A stretch of DNA of 64,000 nt from positions 1 to 64,000 of the forward strand of contig DAIDKE010000001.1 of assembly GCA_027450165.1 (NCBI GenBank), in the 5' to 3' direction. The notes under the pieces were generated by a model, which did not search any database, was not told where the DNA came from, and saw nothing but the letters and a program-made list of their open reading frames with translations. The first letter of the stretch is position 1; every line of letters starts with the position of its first letter. Position numbers and translations under genes: made by a program. This stretch comes from Candidatus Saccharimonadota bacterium (GTDB taxonomy: Bacteria > Patescibacteriota > Saccharimonadia > Saccharimonadales > Saccharimonadaceae). Shown one piece after another: positions 29,570-57,601 of this stretch.

Positions 29570-29680
29570 TAGAGGATTAGTATCTCTTTCGCTCGGCTGT
29601 CCTCGCGCCTTTAATTTCACGTGTCAGCGATGTAAAATTGAGGGCTGCGGGGCCTTCGCTCGAGAGATACTAATCCTCTA
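29570..29680. repeat. Nested inverted-repeat element, copy 1
   Basis: An 18-bp perfect outer stem joins 29570-29587 and 29663-29680. Its right arm contains the last two sense codons and stop of the NUDIX gene. The enclosed core of about 75 bases (29588-29662) has an inner imperfect stem (CCTTTAATTTCAC with GTAAAATTGAGGG). By hand alignment it differs at 4 positions from the reverse complement of copy 2 at 50502-50578. There is no T-run, so it is not a standard terminator. Confidence 0.85.
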
Positions 29681-30158
29681 ACCCTGCAACAAGCTCAATT
29701 AGGTGTTCACCGACCTTGCCATATTTGATCGCGTGATTAAGATCAGCTAGATTAATTAGTTTGTAGCCTATAACGCTCCCACCCGGGTCATTCGTAAATT
29801 CGCCGATCTTCTCCAGTTTTGCGAAGACCCGCGCTTGATAAACGGCGTCGCCCCGTCCGGAGGTAAGCTTTTGATAGCCGAGCATCGACCATTCAATAAC
29901 CCGACAATTCATTTCTTCTTGAATTTCACGACGCATAGTTTGCTCAATAGTTTCACCTGGGTCAACGTGACCACCTGGGAGATTAACTTTGCCGTTTTTA
30001 TCAATCACTAGCGGTACTTTATTATCCAGGTTGGCAATTGCATAAACTTGCTGCCATTTGACGTCCGGTAATTTATCAGCCGAATCGACATCAAACCATT
30101 CAACATTAATTGTTTGGCCGTCATAGACGAACGAGTCGTGGATGTCAGGCTCGACCAT
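29670..30158 (-). CDS. NUDIX hydrolase
   Basis: A 162-residue NUDIX protein. The box GGHVDPGETIEQTMRREIQEEM fits GX5EX7REUXEE, with the usual metal-binding glutamates. NUDIX enzymes cleave nucleoside diphosphates linked to another group; the substrate cannot be read from sequence. I use ATG 30158 (MVEPDIHD), two bases after the exonuclease stop, rather than a longer frame overlapping it. Its last codons and stop form one arm of repeat element copy 1. Confidence 0.85.
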   Translation of the reverse strand: MVEPDIHDSFVYDGQTINVEWFDVDSADKLPDVKWQQVYAIANLDNKVPLVIDKNGKVNLPGGHVDPGETIEQTMRREIQEEMNCRVIEWSMLGYQKLTSGRGDAVYQARVFAKLEKIGEFTNDPGGSVIGYKLINLADLNHAIKYGKVGEHLIELVAGLED

Positions 30159-30160
30159 AG

Positions 30161-33018
<2,858 letters not shown>

Positions 33019-33027
<9 letters not shown>

Positions 33028-34284
33028 GAAGTTGCTTGGCCAGTTGGCGTCGCCAGGGTAAATGTGTTGGCCACCACGATTGTCAATCCTATCGAAACCA
33101 CCATAAGCATAGTTGTTCATTTCACTAATCGTAATGCTGCCATCGTCATAGACCCCCTCAACAACGGCAACGTGACCCCAGTACAATGAACCTCCTTGGT
33201 ACTGGTTCCATTGTGCAACTGCGCCCACTGATGGCGTACCGTCAACCAGGCGCGAATCGCGGGCGGCAAGCGCCCAAGTCCGAGCGTCGCCCCAGTTACT
33301 ACCGACCGGCAGACCCATTTGCATGCGGCGATTGTACACATACCAGGTACAGTTTCCAAAAGCGTAAGTGTTGCCAGCATATACAGTGCCGCCGCTCCAC
33401 CACGTCGCGCCGCTATTATTAAACGTCATTTTTTGCGGAGCGACGTAGCCTGGTCGTTCAGTTGTTGGCAAAACACCATCTGGCAGAATTAATTGCTGAC
33501 CAGTGGCGACAGTGCCGTTGGTTAGGTCGTTAATCAAAGTTACACGGGTTATATCAGAATGATATTTATCGGCAATCGACTGTAGAGTATCGCCGTCTTT
33601 AACGGTATAAAGTATGCCGTCAACTGGCAAAATCTTCAGACTAGTACCTGGGGTCAAGGTGTCAGCGGCAAGGTCATTAGCCCATTCAACGGTATTGGCC
33701 GTTACACCAAATTTCGCCGCAACACTGTTAACATCATCACCGGCAACCGACACGTAAGTCTTGATCGAGTAGTCGGTGCTGGTTGATTGAGCGATGCTAG
33801 GCTTGGAGATCGTAGTTGAGTCGGCAACCTGCGGCATTTGACTGGTAATTTGCGCCGATATTGCCTGGCTGGCCACGGCCGGAGCCACGGACATATCAGC
33901 CGCATTAGCGACGTTGGCCGCTATCGCAGTGGCCACGACGTCGTCAACCGAGGGGTCAGCCTGGCGTTGAGGCACGACCAGCGAGCTGCTGGTTTGCGTT
34001 ACACTGGCAACCGTACTGGCGCCATTAGCGGATTTTGGCGACTGATAACCAATCGCCACCATAACGACTAGGAGTACAAAAACACTCGCATAAATTGCGA
34101 CGGTTGACAGTTTAGGACGGCTTTTTGTCTTGCGACGCTGACGCTTTATTTCTGTCGGTACGGGCTGCGATGCAGCGCTAGATCGGTCCTGGGCAATGCC
34201 CGAAGTGATCTGGTTACTAATTTTAGTTCTCCTGCCGCTCGGATTACTCTCGAGGGCATCTACCGTAGTATGTCTTACTTTCAT
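33019..34284 (-). CDS. LysM-CHAP peptidoglycan hydrolase
   Basis: A 421-residue envelope protein. A basic cytoplasmic region (to about 55), one membrane helix (about 60-80) and a low-complexity Ser/Ala/Gln linker lead to two LysM repeats (YVSVAGDDVNSVAAKFGVTANTV and YTVKDGDTLQSIADKYHSDITRV). A C-terminal CHAP amidase/endopeptidase domain follows, with the catalytic Cys in FGNCTWYV, His in YWGHVAVVEG and an Asn in SEMNNY. It cuts peptidoglycan for growth or for attack on neighbours. Its stop codon lies within the arm of repeat element 3. The promoter is about 150 bases upstream with a structured leader. Confidence 0.92.
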
Positions 34285-34435
34285 TGTGGTGAAACGGGGT
34301 ACAAATCGACCAATATTTAATTACTGTTTAGTAGTACCCGTAACGACTGTTCCGGCAGGCTCATCCTTATACTCTGCTCTCCCACTCCTGTTGCCACTTT
34401 ATGTGACACAAGCAGACAGAAGTGCAGGATGTGCT
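34285..34435 (-). other. Long structured 5' leader of the LysM-CHAP gene
   Basis: About 150 transcribed bases without an open frame. A stretch ACGGGTAC (around 34339-34347) can pair with GTACCCCGT (around 34293-34301) just before the ATG. A 5' part can form CCTG/CAGG and CACTT/AAGTG stems. I recognise no riboswitch class, and the start has no Shine-Dalgarno. Confidence 0.5.
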
Positions 34436-48412: not shown

Positions 48413-48442
48413 TAAGGGTAATTATAACATAACTGCCGACGC

Positions 48443-49216: not shown

Positions 49217-50464
49217 CTACCTACCATTATAATCGGTCCAGTCGGCCGCAATGTCGAAACCATCTGGGTAACGCGACACAAAACCACCGGTGTCATACAC
49301 CATACCAAGCCCCACGCTGGTCTCGACAATGCTACAGCGCGGATAGCGATATAAGTCGGCCGCCACCATCACATAGCCGCTTTGGTCAACCTTGACACCG
49401 TCGGCACGGACAACATAAATGCCGCCATTACCACAGTTGGTCGCGACACGGCTCATGTCTAAGTCATAGTAGGTCTCACGGTGCGTTACACCATTACTGT
49501 CGGTGAAGAAATCAACACCCTTGTTTTTCGTCAGCCCACCGGTCGATTTCACTCCGATGGCCACAACTTCAGTCGTTGGGGCCTGAGTTTGAATGGCGGC
49601 AATCTTGGTACGACTGACCTCTTGGCCGTTTTCAATATCAATTTCGTAGGTCACGGTCTGCTTGCCCGGCTGCCCTGGCGTGCGCGTTTCACGCCAGCCA
49701 ACCATATGGTCGCCGTCTTGGATATACTGCGTATCAAACGGCACGTCTTCTTGGACAGTGATTGTCTGCTTGCCTTCACGCCAGACACGGACGTTCATAC
49801 CAGGGGTAATTGGCGTGTTAAGCGGCGGCACAACGTGGTCTTTAGCCGTGAGGTTAATTTTCTTTTCGCGCAGCATACCGCCAACAGTAGTAGCTTGCGT
49901 ACGAATAGTCGTAATTTGACCATAAAAATCGAGCGTAATTGGTATAGCTCGCTTAACAGTCATCATTAAACCGGCGCCGCTGCCAGCGACATCACTACTA
50001 TTGATTTGGCTTAAAGTAGCTTCGTCTTCTGGGTAAAGTGAAATGCCGGCGTCTTGAGCAATCTGCGCCGGGGTTTGATAGGCCGTCATCACCTTGACGC
50101 GGGTCGTACCGTCAACCACCAACACCGGTCGCGCCCGGTAAATATTGACGTAGTACGACGATGCAATCATCTTTGTGCTAGTACTCGGCTCAACGTTGTC
50201 GCGAGCATCGAGTTTGATTTTAGCCTGCTTCAAAGCATCACCAATGGTATTGACACTGGTTAAAATGACCTGTTTGGCATCGCGATCGTAAATCGTAACT
50301 AAGTGTTCGGTTTTTGCACTCCGGCTAGGCGCGGCCGATGATTTAGCAACGAAATAAAAACCAACAACTATCAAAATCAGACCAGCCAAGCAAGCGAGCG
50401 CTATAGCCAGTCGACGACTAATGGTAATTTTTAGTTTCCCACGTCCAAACACGTTAATAATCAT
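49217..50464 (-). CDS. DUF348-G5-3D cell-wall protein (YabE-like)
   Basis: A 415-residue secreted or anchored protein. N-terminal membrane helix (about 16-36), then DUF348 repeats (VTIYDRDAKQVILTSVNTIGDALKQAKIKL and later copies), a G5 domain (TITVQEDVPFDTQYIQDGDHMVGWRETR...GKQTVTYEI) and a 3D domain ending GFDIAADWTDYNGR with Asp residues typical of MltA-like transglycosylases. It resembles Rpf/YabE-type wall enzymes. A -10 TATAAT overlaps the ATG at 50464, so translation may really begin at the GTG at 50452. The -35 (TTGGGT) lies in the arm of repeat element copy 2. Confidence 0.85.
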   Translation of the reverse strand: MIINVFGRGKLKITISRRLAIALACLAGLILIVVGFYFVAKSSAAPSRSAKTEHLVTIYDRDAKQVILTSVNTIGDALKQAKIKLDARDNVEPSTSTKMIASSYYVNIYRARPVLVVDGTTRVKVMTAYQTPAQIAQDAGISLYPEDEATLSQINSSDVAGSGAGLMMTVKRAIPITLDFYGQITTIRTQATTVGGMLREKKINLTAKDHVVPPLNTPITPGMNVRVWREGKQTITVQEDVPFDTQYIQDGDHMVGWRETRTPGQPGKQTVTYEIDIENGQEVSRTKIAAIQTQAPTTEVVAIGVKSTGGLTKNKGVDFFTDSNGVTHRETYYDLDMSRVATNCGNGGIYVVRADGVKVDQSGYVMVAADLYRYPRCSIVETSVGLGMVYDTGGFVSRYPDGFDIAADWTDYNGR

Positions 50465-50476
50465 TATAGCTTAAAT

Positions 50477-50603
50477 AAGATTTGAACCCAAGAAATTGCT
50501 CTCGAGCGAAGGCCTCGCAGCCCTTTAATTTACATCGCTGACACGTGAAATTAAAGGCGCGAGGACAGCCGAGCGAAAGAGTAATTTTTTGGGTTCAAAT
50601 CTT
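50477..50603. repeat. Nested inverted-repeat element, copy 2
   Basis: Outer stem of 25 pairs with two mismatches joins 50477-50501 and 50579-50603. The right arm contains the end and TGA of uvrD. The core 50502-50578 is the reverse complement of the copy 1 core with about 4 differences in 75. An inner stem CCTTTAATTT/AAATTAAAGG is perfect here. The arms are unrelated to those of copy 1. Confidence 0.85.
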
Positions 50604-52721
50604 TTCCAACCGGGCGTATTCGGCGTTCAGTTTTTTGGTTGTGCCGTTTTCAAACTGAATTGTTACCGCTAAACCATCAGTGGCAATAACTTCGCCGACG
50701 CCAAAAGCGGCCGAGCGCACCATATCGCCAGTACTAAACATTTCATCACTGTAAAAATCTTGCGATTCATTATCAAACGAGCTGCGAAAACCATTACTAC
50801 TCGGAGCCGTCATCGCCAGACCTTCGCCCATGTCAGCAATAAACCTCGACACCGGGTTGTAGTTGGGCTGACCAAACTGAAGCCGTCTGGCGGCGTAACT
50901 AAGGTGTAATTCTTCTTTAGCTCGCGTCATACCGACATAACAGAGTCGACGCTCTTCCTCTAATTCGGCCGGGCCGGCCTCAAATACCCGGGCATGCGGC
51001 ATAATTCCCTCTTCAAGACCAATCATAAAGACCACTGGAAATTCCAGCCCCTTGGCAGCGTGGAGCGTCATGAGTGTCACTTTGGCGTCATCGCTAGCCG
51101 TATCGGCGCTCGACATCAAAGCAACTTCTTCTAGAAAATCTTGTAAGCTAGCGAAATTGCCGGCGTCAGAAACCAACGAGCCCAAGTTTTCTTCGCGCTC
51201 TTCGCCACCCGGCGTGCCGTCGTTAATGTAGTGTTTGTAATCGGTCGCCTTGAGAATTCGTTCGATAATCTCGGCTGGCGAGCTCGTCTCAAGATCGGCC
51301 TGAATGGCGCGTAGTTTATTGCCAAGGTCGATTAGCGAAGTTTTGGCCTTGCCGCCAGCCATGACATTTGAGGTCTGTTCTAGTTGACCAAGCGCCTCAA
51401 GGATATCTAAACCGCTATCTGATTGCCAGGTTAAAAAGCGCTCTAGGCTCGTCGGACCGACACCGCGCGTTGGCACGTTAGCAACTCGGCTAAAGCTCAT
51501 GCGGTCATTGGGCTGAAACAACAATTTAAGATAAGCGATGATATCTTTTATTTCTTTACGGTCATAGAAACGAATTCCGCCAACGATCTGGTATGGAATA
51601 CGCATCTGAATAAAGGCGCGCTCTAGCGTGTAACTAAGGGCGTTAGTACGATAAAGCACCGCAAAATCACTGTACGAACGAGCTTTCATCATGACATGTG
51701 AGGCAATGCGCTCGGCCACCATGCGCGACTCTTCGGTTTCATCGTAAACACCGTGGACCTGCACTGGCGCACCGGCGCCGGCGGCCGTCCATAGTTTTTT
51801 GTCGGTCCGCTGGACGTTTTTGGAAATTACGTTATGCGCAGCGTCCAAAATATTGCCGGTTGAGCGATAGTTTTGCTCCAATTTAATTACTTTGGCACCC
51901 TTAAAATCGCGTTCAAAGTTCAAAATGTTGGTAAAATCAGCGCCACGCCAACTATAAATCGACTGCCAGTCATCACCGACAACGCAAATATTTTTGTCGT
52001 CGTTGACCAGCAACTTGACGATCTGATACTGAGCGGCGTTAGTGTCCTGATACTCATCGATTAAAATGTGCTTGAACTGTCGACGCCAATTTTCGCGTAA
52101 ATCTGGATGATCGCGCAACAGGCGCACCGTCTCGAGCAGTAAATCATCGAAATCAAGCGCCCCGGCCGCACTGCGTAATTTTTCATATAGCGCATAGATT
52201 TTGGCGACATTTTTTTGATAAGGGTAATGAACCGTTAATTCGAACTCCGGCGGCGTAATCAAATCATTTTTGGCCTTGGAAATTGCCGCCACGGCCGCCG
52301 ACGGCTTGATGTCGCGATCACTAATCGATAGTTGCTTCATGGCTTGCTTGACCAGCGCCAAACGATCGTCTTCGTCGTAAATTACATAATTGCGGGCAAT
52401 GCCAATCGCTTGACCCTCCATGCGCAGCAAACGGACACAAATTCCATGAAAAGTACCCATCCACGGCATAAAATCACGCCGCTGACTGTTTTCGTTAAGC
52501 AGCTTGCCAAGGCGTTCGCGCATTTCACGCGCTGCTTTATTGGTGAAAGTTACCGCTAGAATCTGGTTCGGCCAAATCGCTTGCTCGGAAATTAGGTAGG
52601 CAATGCGATGAGTTAGCGTTTTCGTCTTACCGCTGCCAGCGCCAGCTAAAATTAACAGCGGACCAGACGTCGTCTGCACCGCTTCAAGCTGAGCGTCATT
52701 TAACCCCTCGAGAATATTCAT
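50595..52721 (-). CDS. uvrD: DNA helicase UvrD/PcrA
   Basis: A 708-residue superfamily 1A helicase. Motif I is LAGAGSGKTKTLTHR, II LIDEYQDTN, III VVGDDWQSIYSWRGAD (Trp where Asp is usual), IV LEQNYRST, V MTLHAAKGLEFPVVFM and VI LCYVGMTRAKEEL. A C-terminal Tudor-like domain (GDMVRSAAFGVGEVIATDGLAVTIQFENGTTKKL) matches PcrA. It unwinds DNA in excision and mismatch repair. TATAAT is ten bases before the ATG. Its 3' end is part of the repeat-element arm. Confidence 0.96.
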   Translation of the reverse strand: MNILEGLNDAQLEAVQTTSGPLLILAGAGSGKTKTLTHRIAYLISEQAIWPNQILAVTFTNKAAREMRERLGKLLNENSQRRDFMPWMGTFHGICVRLLRMEGQAIGIARNYVIYDEDDRLALVKQAMKQLSISDRDIKPSAAVAAISKAKNDLITPPEFELTVHYPYQKNVAKIYALYEKLRSAAGALDFDDLLLETVRLLRDHPDLRENWRRQFKHILIDEYQDTNAAQYQIVKLLVNDDKNICVVGDDWQSIYSWRGADFTNILNFERDFKGAKVIKLEQNYRSTGNILDAAHNVISKNVQRTDKKLWTAAGAGAPVQVHGVYDETEESRMVAERIASHVMMKARSYSDFAVLYRTNALSYTLERAFIQMRIPYQIVGGIRFYDRKEIKDIIAYLKLLFQPNDRMSFSRVANVPTRGVGPTSLERFLTWQSDSGLDILEALGQLEQTSNVMAGGKAKTSLIDLGNKLRAIQADLETSSPAEIIERILKATDYKHYINDGTPGGEEREENLGSLVSDAGNFASLQDFLEEVALMSSADTASDDAKVTLMTLHAAKGLEFPVVFMIGLEEGIMPHARVFEAGPAELEEERRLCYVGMTRAKEELHLSYAARRLQFGQPNYNPVSRFIADMGEGLAMTAPSSNGFRSSFDNESQDFYSDEMFSTGDMVRSAAFGVGEVIATDGLAVTIQFENGTTKKLNAEYARLEKI

Positions 52722-57443: not shown

Positions 57444-57518
57444 TGGTGATCTCACCGGGAATCGAACCCGAATTGCCAGGATGAAAACCTGGTGTCCTAA
57501 CCTTTAGACGATGAGACC
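57444..57518 (-). tRNA. tRNA-Glu (UUC)
   Basis: Acceptor GGTCTCA/TGAGATC, anticodon stem CCAGG/CCTGG with TTTTCAT giving TTC, T-arm CGGG/CCCG around TTCGATT, and encoded CCA. Its first five bases also form the arm of a long inverted repeat upstream. Confidence 0.95.
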
Positions 57519-57601
57519 AAATTGCTAGTGAAAAGCAACAAAAATGCTCGCATTTTTACGCTTTTCCTCGCAATTTGGTCTTCCTATGGCCAAGGGCCAT
57601 A
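57514..57601. repeat. Nested perfect palindrome upstream of tRNA-Glu
   Basis: Three perfect stems are stacked: AGACCAAATTGC/GCAATTTGGTCT (57514-57525 with 57570-57581), GAAAAGC/GCTTTTC, and AAAAATGC/GCATTTTT. The outer arm takes in bases 1-5 of tRNA-Glu. A separate TATGGCC/GGCCATA hairpin follows at 57585-57601. Confidence 0.85.

Follow-up and report, generated by a model that had tools for sequence, protein, structure and literature searches.

A dispersed hairpin element of Saccharibacteria with a conserved core and arms that differ at every locus

Two hairpins at gene junctions

The window analysed here is a stretch of 64,000 nucleotides from a Saccharibacteria genome (G000). It holds two copies of a hairpin in which a core is flanked by complementary arms. 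Copy A has its core at 29588-29662 (plus strand), within which the centre model described below matches 29599-29652 and the centre stem covaries. Its first arm (29570-29587) lies on the non-coding side of the NUDIX-uvrA intergenic space, and its second (29663-29680) overlaps the final codons of the NUDIX gene (29670-30197, minus strand) together with the TAG that ends it. Copy B has its core at 50503-50577 (minus strand), with a centre-model match at 50513-50566. One arm (50477-50502) adjoins the start region of a gene at 49217-50464 (minus strand), and the other (50578-50603) overlaps the end of uvrD/pcrA (50595-52721, minus strand), which reads AAG ATT TGA. The arms are 18 bp long and 100% complementary in copy A, and 26 bp long and 92% complementary, with two mismatches, in copy B. 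Compared with dinucleotide-shuffled sequence, both copies are much more stable when folded, whichever strand is taken (z -7.6 to -9.4). The core of copy A runs antiparallel to its flanking genes, and that of copy B is parallel to uvrD.

The first-pass annotation had described two nearly identical cores, matching at about 71 of 75 positions, inside unrelated outer stems. Both statements hold. The cores are identical at 72 of 76 positions (4 differences), and the arms are matched only within their own locus: alignment of each left flank with the reverse complement of its right flank scores 36 for copy A and 42 for copy B, against a mean of 11.5 and a 99th percentile of 20 when flanks of different loci are paired. 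A third copy in this genome lies on contig C3. Copies b and c of G000 have cores that differ at 1 of 76 positions and arms that are unrelated. The arms thus did not travel with the core, unless the cores alone have been homogenised.

Other structures occur in the same window. A 20-bp inverted repeat (57514-57533 and 57562-57581, 85% complementary) abuts a tRNA gene at 57447-57518. A lysM-TM7 RNA (34229-34360, minus strand; Rfam RF03005, 78.9 bits) precedes a gene for a LysM/CHAP-type protein, as is consistent with a Saccharibacteria genome.

Distribution of the core

When 394 genomes from the same GTDB family of Saccharibacteria were scanned with a covariance model of the 54-nt centre, 15 proved to carry the element. 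They hold 31 copies in all, spread over about 22 loci, with one to eight copies per genome. The collection holds one genome per species, many of them incomplete metagenome-assembled genomes (MAGs), and the filters applied to large samples were strict, so these counts may miss diverged copies. In the class sample (153 genera; the family sample spans 61 genera), families other than this one give no match to the model. Carriers in a GTDB-wide pattern scan are Saccharibacteria or Patescibacteria MAGs. Pattern matches in Paenibacillus, Maribacter and others outside Saccharibacteria, and in one viral contig, were rejected as they have the loop motif without the stem, in numbers expected by chance.

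The centre stem is supported by covariation, with 23 cells altered on both sides, a value that 0 of 500 shuffles equal. Its loop contains the invariant letters TTTCACG...AGCGATGTAAA, and the flanking GCGCC/GGGCT pairing includes conserved unpaired bases. The conserved core is 54 nt long in all genera and extends to about 76 nt in the genus of G000. Copies are intergenic, occur more than once per genome and form hairpins, and their presence is patchy even inside one genus. No Rfam family fits the element at gathering or lax thresholds. On the best reading, the core is the inherited unit of a short dispersed hairpin family that, in the genomes sampled, is limited to a single Saccharibacteria family. 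This adds an uncatalogued repeat family to a group whose small genomes have few known repeats.

A cognate transposase was sought with PF01797, the Y1 transposase domain of the TnpA-REP (RAYT) type. There is none in G000 (99.5% complete) or in its sister species G041 (81% complete). Among 14 carriers, 4 have the domain, and these belong to a single genus; among 20 non-carriers, 1 has it. No core occurs in the sequence examined around PF01797 genes. Dependence on a REP/RAYT system was rejected: that one genus aside, the carriers with most copies have no transposase, and the genes do not sit beside cores. Also rejected was a core pair flanking a transposase gene, as the two cores 2.7 kb apart in G036 each lie at an ordinary gene junction of their own. 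Y1/RAYT-like proteins with an HFH motif are encoded in some genomes of one genus (L142, L143, L144 and L148).

Arms that are self-complementary and specific to each locus

When the flank comparison is applied to every copy and all cross-locus pairs, nearly every copy has self-complementary arms of its own, and arms from different loci are unrelated. Own-arm scores range from 13 to 58, and in 25 of the 31 copies no cross-locus pair reaches the copy's own score. The weakest pairing belongs to G199c, and none of the 31 copies is armless. The outer arms end at a mean of 31 nt (sd 3.6) from the 54-nt centre, and the arms that look youngest are perfect across 18-28 bp. The possibilities that the core exists nowhere else, or that its copies in other genomes share the same outer arms, are both contradicted by these data.

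The proposal that the stem is rebuilt at each site is borne out in that arms differ by locus and stay paired. It applies less fully in other genera, where the inner arm, with an internal loop and a bulge in constant position, is part of the element and locus specificity is restricted to the outer arm. Arm sequences have no second occurrence in their own genomes. The idea that arms act as guides or spacers copied from elsewhere was rejected since they are present at their own loci only. At the ksgA-metG site of G041 (L045 1213-1347), two copies about 110 bp apart lie in opposite orientation, and their neighbouring arms share bases.

Empty sites and the origin of the arms

Several arms contain the ends of host genes. 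In G000 an arm of copy A includes the NUDIX stop and the codons just before it, and an arm of copy B the last codons of uvrD. In G041 the arms take in the ends of uvrD, NUDIX and lepA and, at trxB, the two stops that face each other. The uvrD end, KI-stop, lies in an arm in both species, and the lepA end, KRD-stop, in a G041 arm. At uvrD, NUDIX and lepA one arm is the gene end and the other is an inverted copy of it. The non-coding NUDIX arm of G041 scores 34 against the coding end of G000 and 28 against its own coding end, the pattern that an older arm, copied in inverted form from the gene end, would leave.

Empty sites in relatives add to this picture. At lepA, the coding end in G000 is again KRD-stop, and the site is free of any palindrome. 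At trxB, the outer arm edge in G041 coincides with TAA stops that pre-exist on both sides of the G000 site, and neither core nor palindrome is present there or at the ksgA/rsmA-metG site of G000 (48413-48442), the place where G041 has its two copies. The glyA site is likewise empty in congeners of the carrier, and the gapdh-rpiB site in relatives. Neither arm can be recognised in these two empty sites or their flanks, and host origin of the whole arm therefore lacks support there. The earlier suggestion that arms come from the host locus thus stands for uvrD, NUDIX and lepA, and the glyA and gapdh-rpiB arms are untraced. No direct target-site duplication is seen beside copies that have relatives for comparison, although the empty sites compared are strongly diverged; sister-species flanks are at best about 75-80% identical, too diverged for an insertion to be followed base by base.

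These sites bear on the idea that palindromes already in place, such as intrinsic terminators, receive the core in their loops. The arms of G157 and G226 end in A and T runs and so resemble a bidirectional terminator. However, relatives have no matching palindrome at any of the empty lepA, trxB, ksgA-metG, glyA and gapdh-rpiB sites. In addition, arms extend into coding sequence, and the T run of an intrinsic terminator is missing after most copies, including both copies in the window. We regard insertion into palindromes as very improbable.

Change at orthologous sites

Orthologous copies are found at gltX (four species), uvrD, NUDIX-uvrA and rplJ-rplL, and both arms have changed there with pairing kept. 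At gltX and uvrD it is the outer arm sequence that differs. The core itself is flipped at three of six orthologous loci: uvrD (G000 versus G041), gltX (G036 and G199 versus G226 and G217) and PulE/TrmH (G041 versus G214). It is unflipped at NUDIX-uvrA, at rplJ-rplL and at the site shared by G036a and G199c. The opposite orientations noted by the first-pass annotation are real. They are not fixed per site and so tell little about insertion.

At PulE/TrmH, G000 has a smaller hairpin with different arms around TTTCGCTCGAGA. This probably reflects deletion of a core between its two TTCGCTC repeats. A G199 copy (L064 1501-1554) has tRNA genes on one side and the 3' end of the 16S rRNA gene on the other, and is about 250 bases or less from the anti-Shine-Dalgarno sequence.

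Strand asymmetry and the RNA question

Mismatches within arms, read in the orientation of the core, are unequal: A.C outnumbers G.T by 35 to 11 and C.T outnumbers A.G by 49 to 10, a skew that comes in part from the conserved internal loop of other genera and from repeated counting of orthologous copies. For G000 and G041 alone, A.C against G.T is only 7 to 5. The direction of the skew implies that changes are better tolerated on the complementary strand, where they give G.U or G.T and G.A pairs, and this strand also folds slightly better (mean energy -55.8 versus -52.0). The pattern suggests that one folded strand may matter and be under selection.

Such selection is what would be expected of a structured RNA gene or of an element in 3' or 5' UTRs, where selection on the transcript would keep the stem while the outer stem drifts with compensatory changes. 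The wobble-compatible mismatches, the better folding of one strand and the conservation of the rplJ-rplL copy in two species are all compatible with this explanation. That copy is an addition rather than a leader, as a standard L10 leader precedes rplJ in the same genome (L065 2221-2355, minus strand). However, the element takes either orientation relative to transcription and flips at orthologous sites, unrelated arms surround near-identical cores, no Rfam family corresponds to it, and its presence is patchy even within a genus. An RNA explanation is, on balance, unlikely. The earlier preference for a DNA element over a strand-specific RNA signal agrees with the mixed and flipped orientations, while the A.C to G.T imbalance leaves room for a strand-specific structure. 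A transcript-sense RNA was rejected on orientation. A replication-strand signal was rejected because copies A and B, 21 kb apart, are in opposite orientation, as are the two G041 copies at about 110 bp.

How the arms may form

Short-range template switching at inverted repeats can copy a flank as its reverse complement, cause multi-base compensatory change, invert the spacer and homogenise the arms (PMC8794818; PMC8604942). Such outcomes are seen here: one arm is the reverse complement of the ancestral flank at uvrD, NUDIX and lepA, and the spacer is inverted between related genomes at uvrD, gltX and PulE/TrmH. We hold, with somewhat more belief than doubt, that the hairpin is a small dispersed element and that short-range template switching, taking place where the core folds, both builds its arms out of local DNA and later renews them. 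The core would lodge between genes. Its stable hairpin would bring both flanks together during replication and nucleate template switching at each site, and one flank would be copied, inverted, onto the opposite side. This would give a stem about 20-30 bp long whose arms come from the host. Later switching events would repair arm mismatches and at times flip the core.

Template switching as the cause of the arms is what we infer from these patterns. It would account for the arms, and the spread of the core lies outside it; that the core itself moves seems probable from its presence and absence among relatives. Some observations count against this reading. The distance from the centre to the outer arm ends varies rather little, and random switching would be less uniform. 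The strand-skewed mismatches, the lack of armless copies and the untraced arms at glyA and gapdh-rpiB also weigh against it. Template switching alone leaves the constant arm length unexplained, which gives room for a dedicated insertion chemistry or for selection for a set stem length.

One form of such chemistry is a mobile single-stranded hairpin that copies about 20-30 nt of its target in inverted form at insertion, so that each copy would be born with arms from the host locus. We consider this unlikely, though it deserves mention. In a more specific version, which we judge rather unlikely, the hairpin would be joined at a nick in the target and would then prime its own copying, in rolling-hairpin fashion, of about 20-25 nt of the flank, which would create an inverted target duplication. 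This agrees with the presence of arms of similar length on every copy and with the perfection of the youngest-looking arms. The core hairpin also has conserved extra-helical bases, a feature recognised by single-strand transposases in other systems. Yet no enzyme was found, PF01797 being missing from G000, G041 and 10 of the 14 carriers tested. Furthermore, arms also change at old orthologous sites, and a mechanism confined to insertion is therefore insufficient. We know of no precedent for inverted target-site duplication in bacterial transposition, and a literature search for it, or for a matching bacterial repeat, gave no match. If insertion does make the arms, it would represent a new transposition chemistry. 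The same core at about 22 loci, with stems of differing local origin and visible inversions, would offer a repeated natural experiment on how long perfect stems arise and remain paired.

Comparison with known systems

The first-pass annotation knew of no REP, BIME or MITE of this build, and the comparisons made here, like the literature search, agree. REP, BIME and REPIN sequences mobilised with TnpA-REP (RAYT) are also short intergenic hairpins with several copies per genome, conserved unpaired bases and both orientations. The Saccharibacteria element differs in its far fewer copies, in the long locus-specific arms outside its conserved part and in the absence of a Y1 transposase from G000 and G041. 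By inspection, no REP-type foot motif (GTAG or similar) at the hairpin base is common to the 31 aligned copies. MITEs are likewise short, non-coding and dispersed, with an inverted-repeat structure. Their terminal repeats, however, stay the same from copy to copy and have direct target duplications beside them, whereas those of the present element differ at every locus.

Template-switch hairpins share the reverse-complement flank arms, multi-base compensatory changes and spacer inversion (PMC8794818; PMC8604942). Those cases are single hairpins or RNA genes, whereas here the process would recur around one dispersed, conserved core. The repetitive hairpin elements, double-hairpin elements and GC clusters of mitochondria are small intergenic hairpin repeats that also spread without a known enzyme (PMC2800124). 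In the mitochondrial repeats, however, the stems are conserved and the loops vary, while in Saccharibacteria it is the outer stem that varies around a conserved centre. Integron attC sites resemble the element in being imperfect hairpins with extra-helical bases and variable stem sequence. An attC site has a conserved base and a variable middle. The Saccharibacteria element is the reverse, with its middle conserved and its base variable.
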